Shown here in pieces: positions 33,566 through 43,041 of a stretch of 64,000 nt of DNA. How positions within the stretch are numbered: the first letter of the stretch is position 1; the number at the start of each line of letters is the position of its first letter. The notes beneath the pieces were generated by a model. It saw only the letters and a program-made list of their open reading frames with translations, ran no database searches and had not been told where the DNA came from. Position numbers and translations under genes: made by a program. Origin of the DNA: Pseudemcibacter aquimaris (GTDB lineage Bacteria > Pseudomonadota > Alphaproteobacteria > Sphingomonadales > Emcibacteraceae). The stretch lies in contig NZ_CP079800.1 of assembly GCF_028869115.1 (NCBI RefSeq), forward strand, positions 2,356,001 to 2,420,000. Reading direction: 5' to 3'.

Positions 33566-34381
33566 ATGACGCCACTAAAGTTTAATAGCCTTGAAGTAAA
33601 GCTTGCTGAAACTTCACAAGAGATCGAAGCAGCTCAAGCATTAAGATACCGCATCTTTTATGATGAAATGGGTGCTAAACCATCTACACGGTGCAAGGCA
33701 TTAAAACGTGACATTGATACCTATGACATCGTTTGCGATCATTTAATTGTGGTCGATACCGACCTGGGTACGGATGATGAACCAGCCGTTGTTGGCACAT
33801 ACCGCCTTCTTCGTGGGAATGTGGCCGAGGCAACAACAGGTTTTTATTCCGAAAATGAATTCGAATTTGACAATCTTGCCTACGCACCGGAAGAAGTTCT
33901 TGAACTTGGCAGATCATGCATCGACAGCAAATACCGTAGACGCGGTGCCATGCAGTTATTATGGCGTGGCATAAGTGATTATCTTGATCTTTACAACATC
34001 AAGATCATGATCGGTTGCGGTAGCATTCATGGTACAGATGTAAAAGAAACCGAACGCGTTCTTTCTTATCTGCATCACTATCATCTTGCGCCAAGCTCAT
34101 TACGTCCGGTTGCGCTTGCTGATCGTTATCAGGAAATGAACCTGATTGATGAAGATTATCTTGATGCGGGTCTTATTCAGGCGGAATTACCACCACTATT
34201 AAAAGGATACCTTCGTGTTGGTGCCTATGTCGGTGATGGCGCCGTAATCGATAGACAGTTTAATACCATTGACGTTTGTATTGTTGTGGAAACGGAAAAT
34301 ATTACGGGCAAATATAAATCCCACTTCAAACGTGATAAAGCCCGTACGGAAACAACAGAACATGCAGTACAGGCCAGCTAA
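33566..34381 (+). CDS. olsB: L-ornithine N-acyltransferase (ornithine lipid synthesis)
   Basis: 271-aa GNAT-related acyltransferase of the OlsB group, which attaches a 3-hydroxy fatty acid from ACP to the alpha-amino group of ornithine to make lyso-ornithine lipid. Diagnostic stretches are 'AQALRYRIFYDEMGAKPS', 'LELGRSCIDSKYRRRGAMQLLW', seen around residue 115-135 (quoted as a landmark), and 'IMIGCGSIHGTD'. It is followed by an overlapping olsA homologue, confirming the assignment. GTACAGGAGTTAG provides the ribosome site. Confidence 0.92.
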   Translation: MTPLKFNSLEVKLAETSQEIEAAQALRYRIFYDEMGAKPSTRCKALKRDIDTYDIVCDHLIVVDTDLGTDDEPAVVGTYRLLRGNVAEATTGFYSENEFEFDNLAYAPEEVLELGRSCIDSKYRRRGAMQLLWRGISDYLDLYNIKIMIGCGSIHGTDVKETERVLSYLHHYHLAPSSLRPVALADRYQEMNLIDEDYLDAGLIQAELPPLLKGYLRVGAYVGDGAVIDRQFNTIDVCIVVETENITGKYKSHFKRDKARTETTEHAVQAS

Positions 34382-35150
34382 CAATAATTCTACGCATTCC
34401 AACATAAGAGCCAGCGTCAAATTGCTGATCATTTTTTCAGTGACGCTGGCTCTTCTCCCCCCATATTTGATTACATTTCCATTTGGCAAACGGTTCAGAA
34501 GGTTTTTTTCCTATCCATTTTATCGCACCCTTGTCCACACTGCCGGGTTAAAACTAACCGTTGTTGGTAACCCCAAAAATAGTGATGCCAATTTCCTGAT
34601 ATCAAATCATGTTTCTTATCTTGATATACCAGTACTTGCCAGCATGACAGATGGTATTTTTGTGGCCAAAGCCGATGTCGCAAAATGGCCAGTGATTGGG
34701 TTTCTCGCAAAAATTGGACGTACTCAATTTGTCAGCAGAAAAGCAACCAAAGCGATAGCAGAACGCGATCAGATCGCATCACGTCTAAAATCCGGTGAAA
34801 GAATTTTCCTGTTCCCGGAAGGAAGTAGCGGAAACGGTCGTGATATCCTTCCTTTTAAACCCGGACTTTTATCTACGGCTCTCTTACCGTTTGATGGTGT
34901 TGATATATCTATTCAACCTGTATCACTTGTCTATGGTGACTTTGATACACAAGAAGAACGCGATTTATACGCTTGGTACGGTGATATGGACCTAGCGCCG
35001 CATGTTTGGCGTCTTCTTGGTCAAAAGCAGAAAACAACGGCCAAAATTATTTTCCATAATGAAAAGAAACCTGATGAATTTAAGTGCCGCAAGGAACTTG
35101 CAAAGTGGGCAGAGCTTGAAATCAGACAGCAAATGGAACTTTGTGCTTAA
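34362..35150 (+). CDS. olsA: lyso-ornithine lipid O-acyltransferase (PlsC family)
   Basis: 262-aa membrane-associated acyltransferase that adds the second acyl chain to lyso-ornithine lipid. PlsC motifs: 'SNHVSYLDIP' (NHx4D), 'GRTQFVSRK' and 'FLFPEGSSGNG'. An N-terminal hydrophobic helix ('LLIIFSVTLALLPPYLITF') anchors it. The start is set at ATG 34362, which overlaps the end of olsB by 20 bp; an ATG at 34269 would extend over 113 bp of olsB without need. Together with olsB it makes the phosphate-free ornithine lipids used by many alphaproteobacteria under phosphate limitation. Confidence 0.9.
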   Translation: MQYRPANNNSTHSNIRASVKLLIIFSVTLALLPPYLITFPFGKRFRRFFSYPFYRTLVHTAGLKLTVVGNPKNSDANFLISNHVSYLDIPVLASMTDGIFVAKADVAKWPVIGFLAKIGRTQFVSRKATKAIAERDQIASRLKSGERIFLFPEGSSGNGRDILPFKPGLLSTALLPFDGVDISIQPVSLVYGDFDTQEERDLYAWYGDMDLAPHVWRLLGQKQKTTAKIIFHNEKKPDEFKCRKELAKWAELEIRQQMELCA

Positions 35151-35234: not shown

Positions 35235-36890
35235 TCACGCGTATGCCGCTTCGCCTTCTGGAGCACTAGTTTCCTTTCCCTCATCTTGCCCAATCTCAAC
35301 AACCGCTTGGGCAAGGGCATCATGACGGTTATCAAACCAATGATCATCTGTGATAAGTGGCGCAACATCCAAACCGTGAAGTACGTCGCTCACTGCTTTG
35401 TTAATTCCGGCGATATATACTGACTTACCGGATGCAGCAGCATCTTCAACGATTGTCTCAACCGCTTTTACAGCTGATAGATCAAGAAACGGCACACGGG
35501 CGAAATCAAGCACTAGAATTTTAACATGACCGTTTGCTTTCTCTCTTACATGGTGACCTAGGTCAGCAGCAGCACCAAAGCTTAATGGCCCACCGAAATC
35601 AAATAGTGTCACTGCACCATCCGCACGTGTTAATAGCTCACGCTCCTGTGGATTTTCAATTTCGGCTTCAGAAAGGTTTAGGTTTTTAAGCTGAATTTCT
35701 GAAAGCTGTTTGATGAATGCAAGCGCAGCAAGAACAACCCCCACAGCAACCGCAGTAATCAAGTCAACAAACACAGTCAAACCAAGAACAATCGCCATCA
35801 ACACCAGATCCCAGCGTGGACCTCTATGGGCACGTGCAAGATATCTCCAGTCAATGATATCGTAACCAACTTTGATCAAGATACCGGCAAGGGCTGCGTG
35901 TGGGATCATTGATGCTAATGGAGCAAGCACCAATGCAATCGCAAGCAACACCAAACCATGGATCATACCTGATATTTTAAACTGCCCTCCTGAGCGAATA
36001 TTCACAACCGTACGCATTGTTGCGCCAGCACCCGGTACACCACCGAAAAGACCAGCAACCGTATTACCAATACCCTGACCAATCAGTTCCTGATTTGAAT
36101 TATGGCGTGTACGGGTCATATTGTCCGCAACAAGTGATGTCAGCAAACTATCGATAGCACCCAATAGTGCAAGTAAGAATGCAGCTTCAATCACGATCAG
36201 GAATGATTCTTGTTCAAAAGCCGGCATTACGAATGATGGTAGACCCGATGGCACATCACCAAGGATCGGCGCACCTGCAATCGCTGCACTAAATACAGTT
36301 GCAACAACCAATGCAGCAAGCGGCGCAGGAATATATTTCCCAAGCTTTTTAGGCCAGTAGAACACAATCGCAAGTGTCATTAAACCAATGGCAAGCGCAA
36401 TCCAGTTCGGGTCAATAATCGCACCCGGCACGGATGTTAAAGCAGGAATGGTACCGCTTCCTGATGGTTCATGGCCAAAAAGGCGTGATAGTTGCAACGC
36501 AATGATAATTACGCCAATCCCGCTCATAAATCCGGAAACAACCGGATATGGCACAAGACGAATTAATTGACCGACTTTTAAGAAACCAAAGGCAATTTGC
36601 AGTAACCCGGCAAGCACAACTGCAGAAAAGACAAGCTCTGGACTACCGCCGAGGCTAGTGTAAACACCAGCGAAAACAACAACCATTGGCCCCGTTGGAC
36701 CGGAAATATTACTTCCGGTTCCGCCAAACAAAGACGCAAGGAAACCAACAATAATAGCACCATAAAGGCCAGCCATTGGCCCTGCACCTGATGCTTCACC
36801 AAAGGCCAAAGCCAATGGTAGCGCAACGATACCGGTGGTTAAACCACCCATAATGTCGCCGCGTAGATTAGAAGTATTTAAGAAACTCAT
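35235..36890 (-). CDS. SulP family anion transporter with STAS domain (probable bicarbonate)
   Basis: 551-aa integral membrane transporter of the SLC26/SulP family: about 12-14 helices with the N-terminal 'GGLTTGIVALPLALAFG' and 'NISGPTGPMVVVFAG' signatures, then a C-terminal STAS domain (about 425-535; 'KILVLDFARVPFLDLSAVKAVE'). SulP proteins carry sulfate, bicarbonate or dicarboxylates. Here the context argues for bicarbonate: the gene shares a 53-bp upstream element with an iota-type carbonic anhydrase, and both flank a LysR gene. No sulfate-assimilation genes are nearby. AAGG lies about 8 bp upstream of the ATG. Confidence 0.9.
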   Translation of the reverse strand: MSFLNTSNLRGDIMGGLTTGIVALPLALAFGEASGAGPMAGLYGAIIVGFLASLFGGTGSNISGPTGPMVVVFAGVYTSLGGSPELVFSAVVLAGLLQIAFGFLKVGQLIRLVPYPVVSGFMSGIGVIIIALQLSRLFGHEPSGSGTIPALTSVPGAIIDPNWIALAIGLMTLAIVFYWPKKLGKYIPAPLAALVVATVFSAAIAGAPILGDVPSGLPSFVMPAFEQESFLIVIEAAFLLALLGAIDSLLTSLVADNMTRTRHNSNQELIGQGIGNTVAGLFGGVPGAGATMRTVVNIRSGGQFKISGMIHGLVLLAIALVLAPLASMIPHAALAGILIKVGYDIIDWRYLARAHRGPRWDLVLMAIVLGLTVFVDLITAVAVGVVLAALAFIKQLSEIQLKNLNLSEAEIENPQERELLTRADGAVTLFDFGGPLSFGAAADLGHHVREKANGHVKILVLDFARVPFLDLSAVKAVETIVEDAAASGKSVYIAGINKAVSDVLHGLDVAPLITDDHWFDNRHDALAQAVVEIGQDEGKETSAPEGEAAYA

Positions 36891-37036
36891 TATAGTTACC
36901 TTTATGAACAGTCGTTAAAAAATAAAATTTTTCGCATTTCCTTATGCCGTACTAAAGCATCCCCAGAAATTTATTTGCCTACAATTGATGATTGCTAAAC
37001 AATTTACTTATGATCGTTATATAATAACAAATCGCT

Positions 37037-37091
37037 GATAATACAATTTGCTATTTTTCCGAATTTACGATAGATTTTATCTATCACCTAT
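37037..37091 (-). promoter_or_regulatory. LysR operator/promoter element, copy facing sulP
   Basis: Read on the minus strand, the 53 bp from AGGTGATAG to TTATC match the element at 38057-38109 at 48 of 53 positions. It holds GATAGAT-TTT-ATCTATC (37069-37085), which fits ATAG-N7-CTAT, the half-site of OxyR-type LysR regulators, and a second degenerate ATAG-N7-TATT 15 bp further on. It sits about 150 bp upstream of the sulP start and just upstream of the lysR start. Confidence 0.8.
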
Positions 37092-37115
37092 AAAAAATGC
37101 AGGAAAACAGCCATT

Positions 37116-38051
37116 ATGCAAGTTGGACATCCAACAATTAAACAGCTCAAATATCTTCAAACGGTTATTGAATTAAAAAGTTTTCGTCAGGCGGCGCTTT
37201 CATTAAATGTGTCACAACCGACCGTAACAGCACAAATTGCGGCACTCGAAGAAAATCTTGGCCTAACTTTACTTGAACGTTCAAGAACGGGCGCGCTTCC
37301 GACGGCTGCGGCGCGTTCCATGCTGCCACACATTGAATTAATGCTAGATGAAGTTAAAGCAATTCGGGATGTTGCCAGATTTTCACTTGATAGCGGTGCC
37401 GGCATTCACCGACTTGGTGTTCCACCAACGCTCGGGCCATATATATTGCCAGATATTATTCCAGGTATTCACAAAACATATCCGGATCTTCGTCTTTTTG
37501 TCCGTGAAGATTCGCCAAGGGAAATTGAAAATGGGTTACTAGATGGCCAATTCGATCTTATTTTTACAACCTTGCCATTGGATGTGACCGGGTTAACTGT
37601 TGAGCCGCTTTTTGGTGAACCCTTTAGATTATGTGTTGCACCCGACCATGAATTGGCAAAACAAAGCACCGTAAATGCAAACGACATTACCGATCAACGG
37701 CTGCTCGCCATTGAAGAACGTCATAGGCTATTTGAACAGATGCAGGGCCTAGCGAATAAATACGGTGCCCGTATCTTACGAGATTACGAAGGAACCAGCC
37801 TTGATACCGTAAGACAAATGGTTGGAACCGGAATTGGTATTGCATTTTTGCCTTCACTTTATGTGCGTTCGGAAATTGAACCAAGAAAAGACGTAGCCGT
37901 ACTTGAACTTGAAGATACACCAACAGACAGAGAAGTCGTTCTCGCTTGGCGCCCAAGTGCCCCGCAACGTCATCTCTATAAAGAGCTCGCTGCCTTCATT
38001 CGGTCATTATGCGCCAAGAGATTGAAAAATTATTTACATGTAGATTTATGA
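37116..38051 (+). CDS. LysR family regulator, OxyR-like without redox cysteines
   Basis: 311-aa LysR-type activator. The HTH is 'SFRQAALSLNVSQPTVTAQIAALE' (about residues 22-45), followed by the linker 'LLERSRTGALPTAAARSMLPH'. The effector domain resembles OxyR ('GVPPTLGPYILPDIIPGIHKTYPDL', quoted in part). In OxyR the peroxide-sensing cysteines fall in the stretch aligned with 'LLAIEERHRLFEQMQGLANKYGA'; here they are arginine and alanine, so thiol sensing is ruled out and a small-molecule ligand is likely. It lies between the divergent sulP and the carbonic anhydrase gene, each preceded by the same operator-like element. Confidence 0.9.
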   Translation: MQVGHPTIKQLKYLQTVIELKSFRQAALSLNVSQPTVTAQIAALEENLGLTLLERSRTGALPTAAARSMLPHIELMLDEVKAIRDVARFSLDSGAGIHRLGVPPTLGPYILPDIIPGIHKTYPDLRLFVREDSPREIENGLLDGQFDLIFTTLPLDVTGLTVEPLFGEPFRLCVAPDHELAKQSTVNANDITDQRLLAIEERHRLFEQMQGLANKYGARILRDYEGTSLDTVRQMVGTGIGIAFLPSLYVRSEIEPRKDVAVLELEDTPTDREVVLAWRPSAPQRHLYKELAAFIRSLCAKRLKNYLHVDL

Positions 38052-38054
38052 GAA

Positions 38055-38109
38055 TAAGGTGATAGATAAAAACTATTGCAAATTCGGAAAAATATCAAAT
38101 TGTTTTATC
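38055..38109 (+). promoter_or_regulatory. LysR operator/promoter element, copy facing carbonic anhydrase
   Basis: The second copy of the 53-bp element (48/53 identity to the inverted copy at 37037-37091), about 65 bp upstream of the carbonic anhydrase ATG and starting 4 bp after the lysR stop. ATAG-ATAAAAA-CTAT is conserved, as is the AAATTCGGAAAAATA block between the half-sites. The first ATAG-N7-CTAT is intact; the distal half-site is weaker than in the sulP copy. Confidence 0.8.
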
Positions 38110-38175
38110 ATATCGATGCACCTATATACATATTGAATTCATTAAAAACATTCATTTGTAACGAAAGGAAACGCA

Positions 38176-38649
38176 ATGGCGATTACAGAAACTGAATTAG
38201 AACAAGCACGTGTCGCATGGGGTGATGCGCTTGTTGCAATCTCAAAAGCTTATGAAAACGGTGGCATTGACGAAGCACGCGGTGTTGCTGAAAATGTACT
38301 TGATACAGCATATGGCTACAACATGGGTCCGGTACTATTTAAACCAACACTTGCAAGCGGTGACAAAACATTCCGTCCAACTAAAGAAGGCGCACTTGCC
38401 TATTTCGTTGGTCACGATGACAATTTCCCACTTGATGGCGGTTTCGGTCTTAAAGGCTGGCGCGAATGTGAATCAGTCACATCAGCAAGCTTCATCGAAG
38501 GCGATGTTGCCATGTGGATGGGCTGGATTTCATTAACGGATAAAGACGGCAATGTAACCACAGTTGATAAAAGCTGGGGTTATAAAAAAGATGAAAACGG
38601 AACACTACGCATCGTACATCACCATTCATCACTACCATATCAGCCATAA
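38176..38649 (+). CDS. iota-class carbonic anhydrase-like protein (COG4337, CaMKII-AD/NTF2 fold)
   Basis: 157-aa protein with the NTF2-like fold of the iota carbonic anhydrases, which interconvert CO2 and bicarbonate. The C-terminal HHHSS motif of this class is at residues 148-152 ('RIVHHHSSLPYQP'). Other family landmarks are 'VLDTAYGYNMGPVLFKPTL', 'GALAYFVGHD', 'DGGFGLKGW' and 'TVDKSWGYKKDENG'. There is no signal peptide, so it is cytoplasmic, whereas several described bacterial forms are secreted. AAAGGAAACGC precedes the ATG and a strong terminator follows. Pairing with a SulP transporter and a shared operator suggests conversion of imported bicarbonate. The enzyme class is recognised from motifs, so activity is an inference. 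Confidence 0.8.
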   Translation: MAITETELEQARVAWGDALVAISKAYENGGIDEARGVAENVLDTAYGYNMGPVLFKPTLASGDKTFRPTKEGALAYFVGHDDNFPLDGGFGLKGWRECESVTSASFIEGDVAMWMGWISLTDKDGNVTTVDKSWGYKKDENGTLRIVHHHSSLPYQP

Positions 38650-38674
38650 TTTATATTATTTTATAATTACAATC

Positions 38675-38703
38675 AAAGGCCCCATTCTGGGGCCTTTTTT
38701 ATT
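38675..38703 (+). terminator. Rho-independent terminator after carbonic anhydrase
   Basis: Perfect stem AAAGGCCCCA/TGGGGCCTTT with a 3-nt loop, ending in a T run. It can act in both directions and also ends the convergent serine hydrolase transcript. Confidence 0.92.
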
Positions 38704-39929: not shown

Positions 39930-40985
39930 ATGAATAACATGCTATTAAATTTTAATATGATCGTCTCCTTCCTGTGCTTGTTAATGTCGATACATTTAAT
40001 TTTATTACGATCTATTTATAGGCTCCCAGTACTTTTATTAGCAGGATGCTTTTTGACCATGGCATTACAAGCCTTGTTTTTGGATCTATCCGTTTCAAAA
40101 GGACACGAAAGTTTTTCGGCAACACTTAAACCAGTAATGCCATTATTGTTTGCACCTCTATCATTTTTATTGTTTCAATGTGCTAGAAAAGTACATTTTA
40201 AATTAAGCCCCATTCATATTTTACACGCGCTTCCTGCTATTACAGTTTTCACGCTAATGCTGACACGGTACTTTATCAATATTATCGATATTGTTATTTT
40301 AGCAACGTTAATGGGGTATGCTGTTGCGCTTTCGTTTTTAACCTTTAACGGAAAAATTCAATTCCACTTTAATTTTAAGAATAACAATAATCAAAACGCC
40401 ATTTTTACATGGCTTATCATATTTACTGGATATGCATGGTTCAGCTTTGCGAGTGACGTATTAATTTACATTGAAATCAGTAACGGCGCGGGCATAGTTC
40501 ACTCCACCTCACTATTTATCACAATTATTTTTAAACTAGCATTGGTTAGCTTTGCCTTTATATTCGCTCTTCAAAAATCGCCCTATTTTGATTGGCTTTA
40601 TGAGACTAGAGAGTCAAAGCAAACTCATGAGCTCCCATATGATAAAAAACGCGAGTATGCGTTCATCATTAATGAGTTTGAAGCCATATTGAAAAACCCC
40701 AAAATTTATACTGATGAGGTATTTTCTCTGAAAGCAATGGCAGATAAGATCGGCGTACCAGCACGTCTCTTTTCTAACGCTATCAATCATAAATTTAGTG
40801 AGAGTTATTCCAAACACATGAACCACAGGCGAGTCTGCTTTGCAGAAACCCTCTTGAAAGAAAATCCAGAATTAAACATGACTAATATCATGTTTGATGC
40901 TGGTTTTCGCACTAAATCCAGTTTTAATAAAGAATTCAAAGCAATAACAGGTATGACGCCCACAGAGTACCGAAACTCGCTATAG
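39930..40985 (+). CDS. membrane-anchored AraC family regulator
   Basis: 351-aa protein: about seven hydrophobic segments in residues 1-225 (such as 'MIVSFLCLLMSIHLILL', 'LLLAGCFLTMALQALFL' and 'IIFTGYAWFSFASDVLIY') and a C-terminal AraC DNA-binding domain with two HTHs ('SLKAMADKIGVPARLFSNAIN' in part, and 'MTNIMFDAGFRTKSSFNKEFK' in part) ending 'ITGMTPTEYRNSL'. Membrane-bound AraC regulators usually sense an outside signal. It is divergent from the serine hydrolase gene. The ribosome site is weak; another Met at residue 4 or 10 is possible. It is more AT-rich than the core genes. Confidence 0.85.
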   Translation: MNNMLLNFNMIVSFLCLLMSIHLILLRSIYRLPVLLLAGCFLTMALQALFLDLSVSKGHESFSATLKPVMPLLFAPLSFLLFQCARKVHFKLSPIHILHALPAITVFTLMLTRYFINIIDIVILATLMGYAVALSFLTFNGKIQFHFNFKNNNNQNAIFTWLIIFTGYAWFSFASDVLIYIEISNGAGIVHSTSLFITIIFKLALVSFAFIFALQKSPYFDWLYETRESKQTHELPYDKKREYAFIINEFEAILKNPKIYTDEVFSLKAMADKIGVPARLFSNAINHKFSESYSKHMNHRRVCFAETLLKENPELNMTNIMFDAGFRTKSSFNKEFKAITGMTPTEYRNSL

Positions 40986-41051: not shown

Positions 41052-42635
41052 CTAAAATTCTCTATGTTTTGGTTTATTTCTCTTTTCATCATCAACCGCA
41101 CTCACACTGCATACCCAGATACAACACAAAACTATCACTACTCCTAATCCTTGTAACAAGGATAAAGTCTCACCGAGAACAATCCACCCCAGAAAAACAG
41201 CTGTTATAGGACTAAGAAAACCAAAGCTCGTAACAGTTGATGGGCCAAGACGTTCAATACCCCGGAACCACAAATAATAAGTCAATGCGGCACCGATCAA
41301 TCCTAACCACACAATTCCAATTATATTAACCATGGATAATTCAGGAAGTGGCGGTTCAAATATCATCGATAATGGTACGAGTAAAATACCACCAGCTGTT
41401 AACTGCCAGGCTGTGAAAGTAAATGTTGAAACAGGTGGTTTCCACTTACGCGTCAACACGACCCCACCTGCCATGGAAAAAGCACCAATAAGTGCCGCAA
41501 AAATACCTACAACATCTAACTTAGCATTCGGACTAATTACCAGTAATGCGATCCCGCCTATTCCCGTTACAGCAGATAAAACAGCTGATAATTTCAGTTT
41601 GCTCTCTAATACAAAATAAGAAAGCACCAAAACGATAAGCGGTTGCACGGCCCCTAAAGTTGCCGCAATACCGCCTGGCAACCGATAGGCAGCAATAAAT
41701 AATGCGGCCCAAAATAAAGAGAAATTCAATAGCCCAAGTAACAATATTTTCCCTATCCATGGTGTATTAGGCAACTCTCTGGATATTAAAATTAATAATA
41801 ATCCCGCCGGTAAAGCACGAAGCATAGATATTGTTAACGGATAGGCGTCGTCAGTTGAGAGCATTTCGTACGCTTTTGTTAAACGATCTGTGATACTCAT
41901 GCTGGCAATAATGTCACCACCACGGCGATTTTGATCGCTTTCCAAAGATTGATGAGCGCAACTAATAAATTGCTTTTTATCGCTCCAGATAGTTTCCTTG
42001 AGTGCCGCCAAATCGTGAAGGTGGCGGATCATTGTGGGATCATCTTTATCTGAAGACCTGTCTCGAACAACTACTCGCCATGTTAATGCGCTCACTTTGT
42101 CAGAGGCTGTTTCAATAGGTGAGATGCAAGTTATTTGTGTTTCTGGATCGTCACCCGATAATTCGGACACGATAGATCGTACATCCCGCTTTACAAGTGG
42201 TAACCTATGTTCAGAAAATGTCATTTCTAGTTGTAGGTACGGGCGCAAGAACTCTTGTTCAAAACTCATGTCATATTGGACTGGAGCTTTGAAGAAACGA
42301 TGGCTGTCACCACGCTGAACCTGCCCATCTTCAATTCTAAAGCGTGGGTCAGATATGATATGCGAGATGACAGATTTTCTAAACGAACGCCTGCCACCAA
42401 CAGATACTTGATCCGGTGAGTATAAAATGAAGTCCAAGTCTTCTGAGAAGCGTTTTATTAAACCAAAACCTTTTGACAGACTGGTTCCGCCAGAGAAAAT
42501 GGTGCCAACGCCACGATCATTTTCAAAACTGCCAATCGATTTAAGTAGCTGTACAGCATACCAATCTTTTTCAATGAACGCAGGATCGATACCTGTTTCA
42601 GCAGCAGCTTCAAGAATAAGGTCACGATTAAGCAT
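41052..42635 (-). CDS. abiEii: fusion: C-truncated AbiEii nucleotidyltransferase toxin joined to N-truncated EamA transporter
   Basis: One open frame of 527 aa made from two unrelated genes. Residues 1 to about 262 are an AbiEii-type nucleotidyltransferase ('IFSGGTSLSKGFGLIKRFSEDLDFIL', in part, with the GGTSL and SEDLDF catalytic motifs). From 'YPLTISMLRALPAGLLLILISREL' onward (about residue 265; DNA about 41845) it is an EamA drug/metabolite transporter with nine helices; the usual first helix is missing. The toxin also lacks its last 40 or so residues. The start at 42635 overlaps the antitoxin stop by 8 bp (ATGCTTAA), which fixes it against an ATG at 42671. The junction marks the left edge of the mobile region. 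The fusion is probably a deletion product; whether the toxin half still works is unknown. Confidence 0.85.
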   Translation of the reverse strand: MLNRDLILEAAAETGIDPAFIEKDWYAVQLLKSIGSFENDRGVGTIFSGGTSLSKGFGLIKRFSEDLDFILYSPDQVSVGGRRSFRKSVISHIISDPRFRIEDGQVQRGDSHRFFKAPVQYDMSFEQEFLRPYLQLEMTFSEHRLPLVKRDVRSIVSELSGDDPETQITCISPIETASDKVSALTWRVVVRDRSSDKDDPTMIRHLHDLAALKETIWSDKKQFISCAHQSLESDQNRRGGDIIASMSITDRLTKAYEMLSTDDAYPLTISMLRALPAGLLLILISRELPNTPWIGKILLLGLLNFSLFWAALFIAAYRLPGGIAATLGAVQPLIVLVLSYFVLESKLKLSAVLSAVTGIGGIALLVISPNAKLDVVGIFAALIGAFSMAGGVVLTRKWKPPVSTFTFTAWQLTAGGILLVPLSMIFEPPLPELSMVNIIGIVWLGLIGAALTYYLWFRGIERLGPSTVTSFGFLSPITAVFLGWIVLGETLSLLQGLGVVIVLCCIWVCSVSAVDDEKRNKPKHREF

Positions 42636-43041
42636 ATTGTTCAAAGGATACGTACTTTCCATTATAACCAATCTTACGAGAAATACGCCCTTTAACTCCG
42701 ATCACACGCCCCGTTGGAACTTGCGTTGATTTTCCTTCATTGTAAAACTTTTGTGCCTTTGACGGCATAATCTTAATGCCCAGTTTATTCAGGGCTTCTT
42801 GAGCTAACTCTGGCAAAGGCTTTTCAGGTATTGTTGCCCCGCTGAGTGCAGATTGTTTAGCACGTGCATATACGCCATAGCCAATATTAATCAATAAGCC
42901 TTTTTGTACCAACTGTCGTAGAATACGACCAACTTGGTCATAGCCCCCAATGTCTTCAAAATCTTGGCGCACAAACACGCTTAACGCACTACGTTTAACG
43001 CGATAAGTGATTTTTCCTTCTAATGTGTTTTTAATCGCCAT
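42628..43041 (-). CDS. abiEi: AbiEi-type antitoxin (DUF6088)
   Basis: 137-aa antitoxin and autorepressor of the AbiE type IV toxin-antitoxin class. An N-terminal winged helix ('FVRQDFEDIGGYDQVGRILRQLVQKGLL', quoted in part) binds promoter repeats; the C-terminal part ('IKIMPSKAQKFYNEGKSTQVPTG', in part) antagonises the toxin. AAGGATTAGCT precedes the start. It is translationally coupled to the toxin fusion by an 8-bp overlap. Two identical 17-bp repeats lie directly upstream (43051-43090). Confidence 0.87.
   Translation of the reverse strand: MAIKNTLEGKITYRVKRSALSVFVRQDFEDIGGYDQVGRILRQLVQKGLLINIGYGVYARAKQSALSGATIPEKPLPELAQEALNKLGIKIMPSKAQKFYNEGKSTQVPTGRVIGVKGRISRKIGYNGKYVSFEQYA

Follow-up and report, generated by a model that had tools for sequence, protein, structure and literature searches.

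A carbonic anhydrase of the iota class beside a SulP transporter and a LysR-type regulator in Pseudemcibacter aquimaris: a probable inorganic-carbon supply regulon

Introduction

What does a SulP-type anion transporter do next to an iota-class carbonic anhydrase (CA), with a LysR-type regulator between the two? This question is raised by a locus of Pseudemcibacter aquimaris that lies in a stretch of 64,000 nucleotides (nt; contig NZ_CP079800.1, positions 2,356,001 to 2,420,000 of the forward strand). The whole stretch was analysed and is called the window; all positions below are counted from its first letter. An original prediction, made from the letters of the window alone, had proposed a bicarbonate regulon here, with the gene order sulP(-) lysR(+) CA(+). 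The open reading frames agreed with it in coordinates and strands: sulP (35235–36890, minus strand) encodes 551 amino acids (aa), lysR (37116–38051, plus strand) 311 aa and the CA gene (38176–38649, plus strand) 157 aa. We consider it probable that the locus is an inorganic-carbon supply regulon in which an iota-CA has replaced a beta-CA under the control of LysR. The idea of a bicarbonate regulon thus proved well supported, with bicarbonate transport itself predicted from sequence.

Identity of the carbonic anhydrase and the transporter

A Pfam search gave no match for the 157-aa protein. It was matched by the NCBIfam model NF047901 'metal-independent carbonic anhydrase' with an E-value of 5.3e-64 and 215 bits, which is below the curated cut-off of 350. 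Residues 2–156 aligned to positions 50–204 of the 205 model positions and, as the protein starts at model position 50, it has no N-terminal extension; a cytosolic location is predicted. The protein also matched the solved iota-CAs 7c5x (E 6.5e-69) and 7c5v (E 2.6e-53), and it contains the HHHSS motif, in agreement with the class that had been assigned to it from this motif. The AlphaFold model (predicted local distance difference test, pLDDT, 90; predicted template modelling score, pTM, 0.86) was superposed on 7c5v with a template modelling (TM) score of 0.96 and a root-mean-square deviation of 1.1 Å, so that the structure prediction of 38176–38649 bore out the proposed class as well. The catalytic residues of the iota-CA all2909 are T106, Y124, H197 and S199 according to the available text of PMC8132391. 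Their counterparts, mapped through the NF047901 offset with the model numbering taken as the all2909 numbering, are T58, Y76, H149 and S151, and these were invariant in 27 of 27 aligned rows. The assignment to the iota class by sequence, fold and catalytic residues is therefore well supported, and the protein is predicted to be catalytically active.

The transporter is a SulP/SLC26 protein with a Sulfate_transp domain (E 4e-89) and a STAS domain in Pfam. It was matched by the NCBIfam BicA model with an E-value of 4.6e-156, and the closest solved chain was BicA (6ki1) with 346.6 bits, the next chain reaching 176.4 bits. The BicA residues that bind HCO3- and Na+ are T69, D258, T262, G300, A301 and T302 in the available text of PMC13249358, and all six were kept in the alignment, as T66, D247, T251, G289, A290 and T291. 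These similarities point to bicarbonate as the probable substrate.

Homologous beta-CA units in relatives

SulP was searched in 296 genomes of the order, and 32 loci were fetched. In the loci with a SulP identity of at least 61% (L159–L179; L denotes loci and G genomes), a beta-CA gene directly adjoined sulP in 20 of 21, with the adjacency in L161 and L163 counted from match coordinates. All eight of the beta-CA proteins tested belonged to Pfam Pro_CA (E 1.9e-48 or better). An orthologous lysR (50–79% identity) pointed away from the beta-CA-sulP pair in 15 of these 20 loci; the pair had no lysR beside it in L171, L172, L173 and L177, and L163 was unlabelled, a larger overlapping frame having been picked in place of its sulP. 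Judged by sequence, the homologous unit in relatives is a lysR facing away from a beta-CA-sulP operon. The one exception was L164 (genome G052, Kordiimonadaceae), in which lysR adjoins sulP with no CA between them; a beta-CA was not found in G052, and its iota-CA lies on another contig. The SulP match of G052 (L136, L164) crosses one in-frame TGA. No CA was present in the listed neighbouring reading frames of the other 11 fetched SulPs (identity up to 54%; two near contig ends). Outside the order, four relatives in the gammaproteobacterial family f45, retrieved with LysR as the query, carry lysR with beta-CA-sulP, and two of the four have a second beta-CA-sulP pair. As a separate observation, an ArsR-type helix-turn-helix (HTH) gene by Pfam (L171:3954-4295, plus strand) precedes beta-CA-sulP in L171, where other relatives have LysR, and L172 has a similar frame; a regulator swap is possible there.

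Iota-CA loci were collected from named genomes (best 80 of 431 relatives, 79 loci). The arrangement sulP(-) lysR(+) iota-CA(+) was found in L050 (genome G048, Kordiimonadaceae bacterium UBA4441), L078 (Endozoicomonas sp. G2_1, of family f45) and L088 (Alteromonadaceae M269), so that the proposed synteny does recur in other genomes. In two gammaproteobacterial metagenome-assembled genomes (MAGs; L105 and L112) the order was lysR(-) iota-CA(+) sulP(+), with the iota-CA in the slot of the beta-CA. An iota-CA followed by sulP without lysR was found in Parvularcula and a Parvularculaceae MAG (L055, L107), an iota-CA with two sulP genes in G002 (L038, of the same order as the window), and a distant SulP of 30% identity in L057.

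These neighbourhoods bear on a rival explanation, in which the substrate of SulP is sulfate or some other anion and the adjacent CA has a role of its own, unrelated to it. The SulP family is broad, the protein scored 520 bits against the BicA equivalog cut-off of 880, and 71 of the 79 iota-CA loci, some of them on short contigs, had no SulP match in view, all of which would suit this explanation. Against it, close SulP orthologues adjoin a CA of either class, the CA gene and sulP have a copied control region in common (see below), and BicA is by far the closest solved relative with its ion-binding residues kept. A sulfate permease was consequently judged unlikely.

Displacement of the beta-CA

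To obtain the CA inventory, the P. aquimaris genome was searched for the iota, beta and alpha classes. One iota-CA was found, and neither a beta-CA nor an alpha-CA. A search for the Rubisco large subunit found none in the genome, which fits heterotrophy without proving it. The stretch from sulP to lysR was searched by tblastn for remains of a beta-CA in the window, L050 and L164, and none was found; over the whole window, the only beta-CA matches had E-values of 0.2 or worse. A beta-CA was likewise not found in any of the nine genomes in which an iota-CA adjoins a clear SulP (the window genome, G002 and the genomes of L050, L078, L088, L105, L112, L055 and L107, several of them MAGs of unreported completeness), and it was present in all four f45 relatives with the beta unit. 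Twelve other genomes of the window genus were sampled and one of them, G048, had an iota-CA. The two genomes of the genus with an iota-CA have no beta-CA, and the other 11 have a beta-CA and no iota-CA. At the level of the organism, the beta-CA has been exchanged for an iota-CA in these two genomes of the genus.

The same tendency was seen across the order, where 280 of 296 genomes have a beta-CA. An iota-CA was present in 7 of the 16 genomes without a beta-CA versus 34 of the 280 with one (Fisher p 0.0026), and in genomes at least 90% complete in 7 of 10 versus 34 of 263 (p 9e-5). Of the seven genomes with a close iota-CA (at least 68% identity), five lacked a beta-CA, versus 11 of the 289 others (p 4.7e-6). 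The genomes in these tests are related, and the p values overstate their independence. Among 50 further named iota-CA genomes (the first 50 of 72), 38 had no beta-CA match and 12 had one (seven full-length, five weak and partial); these are raw counts that take no account of how common beta-CAs are in the families concerned.

A role in pH homeostasis or pH stress, with SulP and CA buffering the cytosol rather than supplying carbon, would be served by the same genes, and an alternative role of this kind was proposed for the can2-sulP pair of A. ferrooxidans (PMC6458275, available text). The disappearance of the beta-CA wherever an iota-CA adjoins SulP suggests instead that the enzyme has taken over a basic CA function, and we regard the pH role as improbable.

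The number of exchanges was estimated from a LysR tree of 31 rows, in which some outgroup branches were long. Three changes between iota and beta partners were forced by starred branches: one for the window and L050, nested among beta-CA loci; one for L078 and L088, beside beta-CA loci of gammaproteobacteria; and one for L105 and L112. G052 represents an additional loss of the beta-CA. The iota-CA tree (61 of 82 rows, poorly resolved; the other 21 rows were left out because a larger overlapping frame had been picked) likewise set these recruits apart from one another. The lysR-linked label needed four forced changes in it, which is weaker evidence than that of the LysR tree.

Control region and operator

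A 54-nt inverted repeat, which the original prediction did not include, was found on both sides of lysR with 91% of its positions matched. Arm 1 (37036–37089, minus strand) is the control region common to sulP and lysR, and arm 2 (38057–38110, plus strand) is a copy of it upstream of the CA gene. A pattern for the 31-nt core, derived from both copies and allowing up to 3 mismatches, had two sites in the 3.37-Mb genome, both at the locus, and the reversed control pattern had none. Each arm contains the palindrome ATAG-N7-CTAT, giving two putative LysR operators (both unstranded), ATAGATTTTATCTAT in arm 1 (37070–37084) and ATAGATAAAAACTAT in arm 2 upstream of the CA gene (38062–38076). No convincing shared promoter was found when the stretch was scanned (4 promoter-like sites versus 5.6 expected). 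A terminator-like hairpin with a T tail follows the CA gene at its 3' side (38675–38697, plus strand), one of 4 such sites in the stretch versus 1.8 expected.

The repeat could be a mere scar of a local duplication, with the CA gene outside LysR control. Recombination can produce local inverted duplications and the two copies differ at some positions, both as a scar would have it; we nevertheless think this very unlikely, since the repeat was kept in L050 (53 nt, 87%), where the gene order is that of the window, and since the palindrome recurs beyond the locus. It was present near the lysR start in 21 of 26 CA-linked loci versus 0.14 expected (counted up to 300 nt upstream of the lysR frame or, in all rows but that of the window, up to 60 nt into it), recurred upstream of lysR in alpha- and gammaproteobacteria, and was identical over 15 nt in the window and L105. 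In G052 (4.0 Mb) the strict motif ATAGNTNNNANCTAT occurs once, upstream of the unlinked iota-CA gene, and this site connects the enzyme with the regulon although the genes are not neighbours. Chance neighbourhood of the three genes was also considered and judged unlikely, given the inverted repeat, its unique core, the synteny elsewhere and the 21 of 26 operators. Apart from this, both L246 and L248 have two beta-CA-SulP pairs in tandem, whose SulPs are of different types (about 30% and 63–65% identical to the window SulP), and the second pair of L248 is preceded by two ATAG-N7-CTAT sites.

The LysR regulator

The regulator has the Pfam domains LysR_substrate and HTH_1. Its best family match in NCBIfam was OxyR (202 bits, under the cut-off of 329), OxyR was also the best solved chain, and the form ATAG-N7-CTAT presumably resembles that of OxyR DNA sites. 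These points would agree with a peroxide regulator of the OxyR type and an oxidative-stress regulon. The peroxidatic cysteine of OxyR, which we take to be C199 in the E. coli protein, was located from alignments to solved chains. In none of the 21 aligned LysR orthologues is this position a cysteine: the window protein has R there, and across the set the residue is R, H, Y or L. The position of the second cysteine was a cysteine in eight gammaproteobacterial rows only. Peroxide sensing is thus unlikely, and we give an oxidative-stress response scarcely any weight. The missing cysteine makes a small-molecule signal of carbon status the likelier input. The earlier description of the regulator as OxyR-like holds for the sequence family and the form of the putative operator, and probably does not extend to the sensing of peroxide. 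LysR is predicted to bind the ATAG-N7-CTAT palindrome.

The regulon, its mechanism and its origin

Sequence comparison gave the identities of the genes, the conservation of residues for catalysis and ion binding, the copy of the control region, the lack of any beta- or alpha-CA match, the homologous beta-CA units and the repeated class changes. In the mechanism that we propose for an inorganic-carbon supply regulon, SulP would import bicarbonate, probably with Na+, and the iota-CA would turn bicarbonate into CO2 and back within the cytosol, to serve carboxylating enzymes. LysR would bind the ATAG-N7-CTAT sites and control sulP and the CA gene, which would probably be switched on at low inorganic carbon. 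The regulon would be homologous to the unit of lysR and beta-CA-sulP in relatives; the beta-CA would have been lost, the iota-CA on the opposite side of lysR would have taken its place, and the copied control region would have brought it under LysR control. That low carbon is the signal, that LysR activates and does not repress, and in which order the events took place are all inferred. In A. ferrooxidans the sulP and can2 transcripts fall with rising CO2 (PMC6458275, available text), which by analogy suggests induction at low carbon here.

Several further observations, besides the SulP score below the BicA cut-off and the many iota-CA loci with no SulP in view, weigh against this reading. G004 and G018 have kept both CA classes. 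In the P. aquimaris genome the strict motif ATAGNTNNNANCTAT had 6 sites and its control 7, so that the short motif is not enriched and does not by itself define the regulon. Directly upstream of the CA gene, L078 and L088 have only imperfect operator sites, and no operator site was found before the unlinked iota-CA genes of G004, G018 and G033. An exact ATAG-N7-CTAT was upstream of just 3 of 70 unlinked iota-CA genes (L082, L096 and L127, the last being that of G052). Finally, a close SulP (over 50% identity; best 42%) was found in none of the 11 other same-genus genomes, so that the swap may not have occurred in situ in this lineage.

Moreover, the LysR of the window falls among Kordiimonas-type loci that bear a different family code (L159/L160), and the acyltransferase genes that flank sulP in the window did not turn up next to sulP in L050. 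Taken with the missing SulP, this makes a horizontal arrival possible: the whole unit may have been acquired by the genus from elsewhere, either before the swap or after it. As to the two other loci with the exact palindrome, L082 and L096, neither SulP nor LysR was in view, and the contig of L096 ends 431 nt upstream of the iota-CA gene. The regulon may reach further.

Comparison with known systems

Pairs and fusions of beta-CA and SulP were reportedly described by Felce and Saier in 2004. The locus resembles such beta-CA (can2)-SulP pairs in that a SulP transporter is genomically coupled to a CA, and it differs in the iota class of the enzyme, which is linked to the transporter by lysR and the copied control region. 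Wieschollek (2024) is said to have treated the iota-CA of Thiomicrospira carboxysome loci. In these loci an iota-CA stands in place of CsoSCA, and a nearby SulP rescued CA-null E. coli (PMC12628692, available text). There, too, an iota-CA takes a place that a different CA class holds in related bacteria, with SulP encoded close by; in contrast, Thiomicrospira is an autotroph with carboxysomes, and LysR goes unmentioned in the available text of PMC12628692. Cyanobacterial BicA (6ki1; PMC13249358, available text) is the closest solved SulP relative with the six HCO3-/Na+ residues conserved, but it serves a carbon-concentrating mechanism, whereas here no Rubisco was found and the score is under the equivalog cut-off. 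The metal-free iota-CAs all2909 (cyanobacterium) and Bn86287 (Bigelowiella) share family, fold and catalytic residues with the window enzyme, while the available text of PMC8132391 discusses no gene neighbourhood or transporter link (the terms SulP, operon and bicarbonate transporter do not occur in it).

Coupling of a CA to SulP (for the beta class) and an iota-CA standing in for another class (Thiomicrospira) were thus known already. In the literature search, no description of SulP and an iota-CA under LysR was recognised by title or start of the abstract among the matches listed, with most subscription journals and all preprints outside its scope. Within the same scope, three features were not found in print and appear to be new: the LysR regulon with a common operator, the replacement of beta-CA by iota-CA several times within it, and the copy of the control region through which the incoming enzyme is connected. 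The earlier suggestion of an undescribed module accordingly needs narrowing: the locus is a version of the known beta-CA-SulP pairing, and what stands out is the swapped CA class and the LysR regulon with its copied control region.

A wider generalisation is put forward tentatively. The Pseudomonadota might possess a carbon-sensing LysR regulon with an exchangeable enzyme slot, in which the zinc beta-CA has given way to a metal-free iota-CA repeatedly and independently, with pump, regulator and operator fixed. If so, the short iota-CA would be a general replacement of the housekeeping beta-CA in many bacteria, perhaps favoured by zinc scarcity. The role of bacterial iota-CAs in the cell is little known, and the genome context suggests a stand-in for the beta-CA in a bicarbonate regulon, at least three times on the LysR tree. 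Complementation with swapped CA classes under one regulator becomes a clean test, and the locus provides a natural setting in which to study why zinc catalysis is abandoned by a cell. The conserved LysR with its readable operator is a candidate inorganic-carbon sensor in a bacterium in which no Rubisco was found.

Neighbouring genes

On the sulP side, the locus is adjoined by an Acetyltransf_5 gene and an Acyltransferase gene by Pfam (33566–35150, plus strand), which we take to resemble ornithine-lipid synthesis genes (olsB/olsA-like). Just past the CA gene lie the genes for a Beta-lactamase-family protein (PF00144; 38710–39807, minus strand) and an AraC-type regulator (39930–40985, plus strand). 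Further on, a 539-aa frame (41052–42671, minus strand) combines two parts, an AbiEii-type nucleotidyltransferase stretch (PF08843) and an EamA transporter (PF00892), and a DUF6088 gene (42628–43041) is directly upstream of it; the 539-aa frame looks like a gene fusion or a deletion junction.

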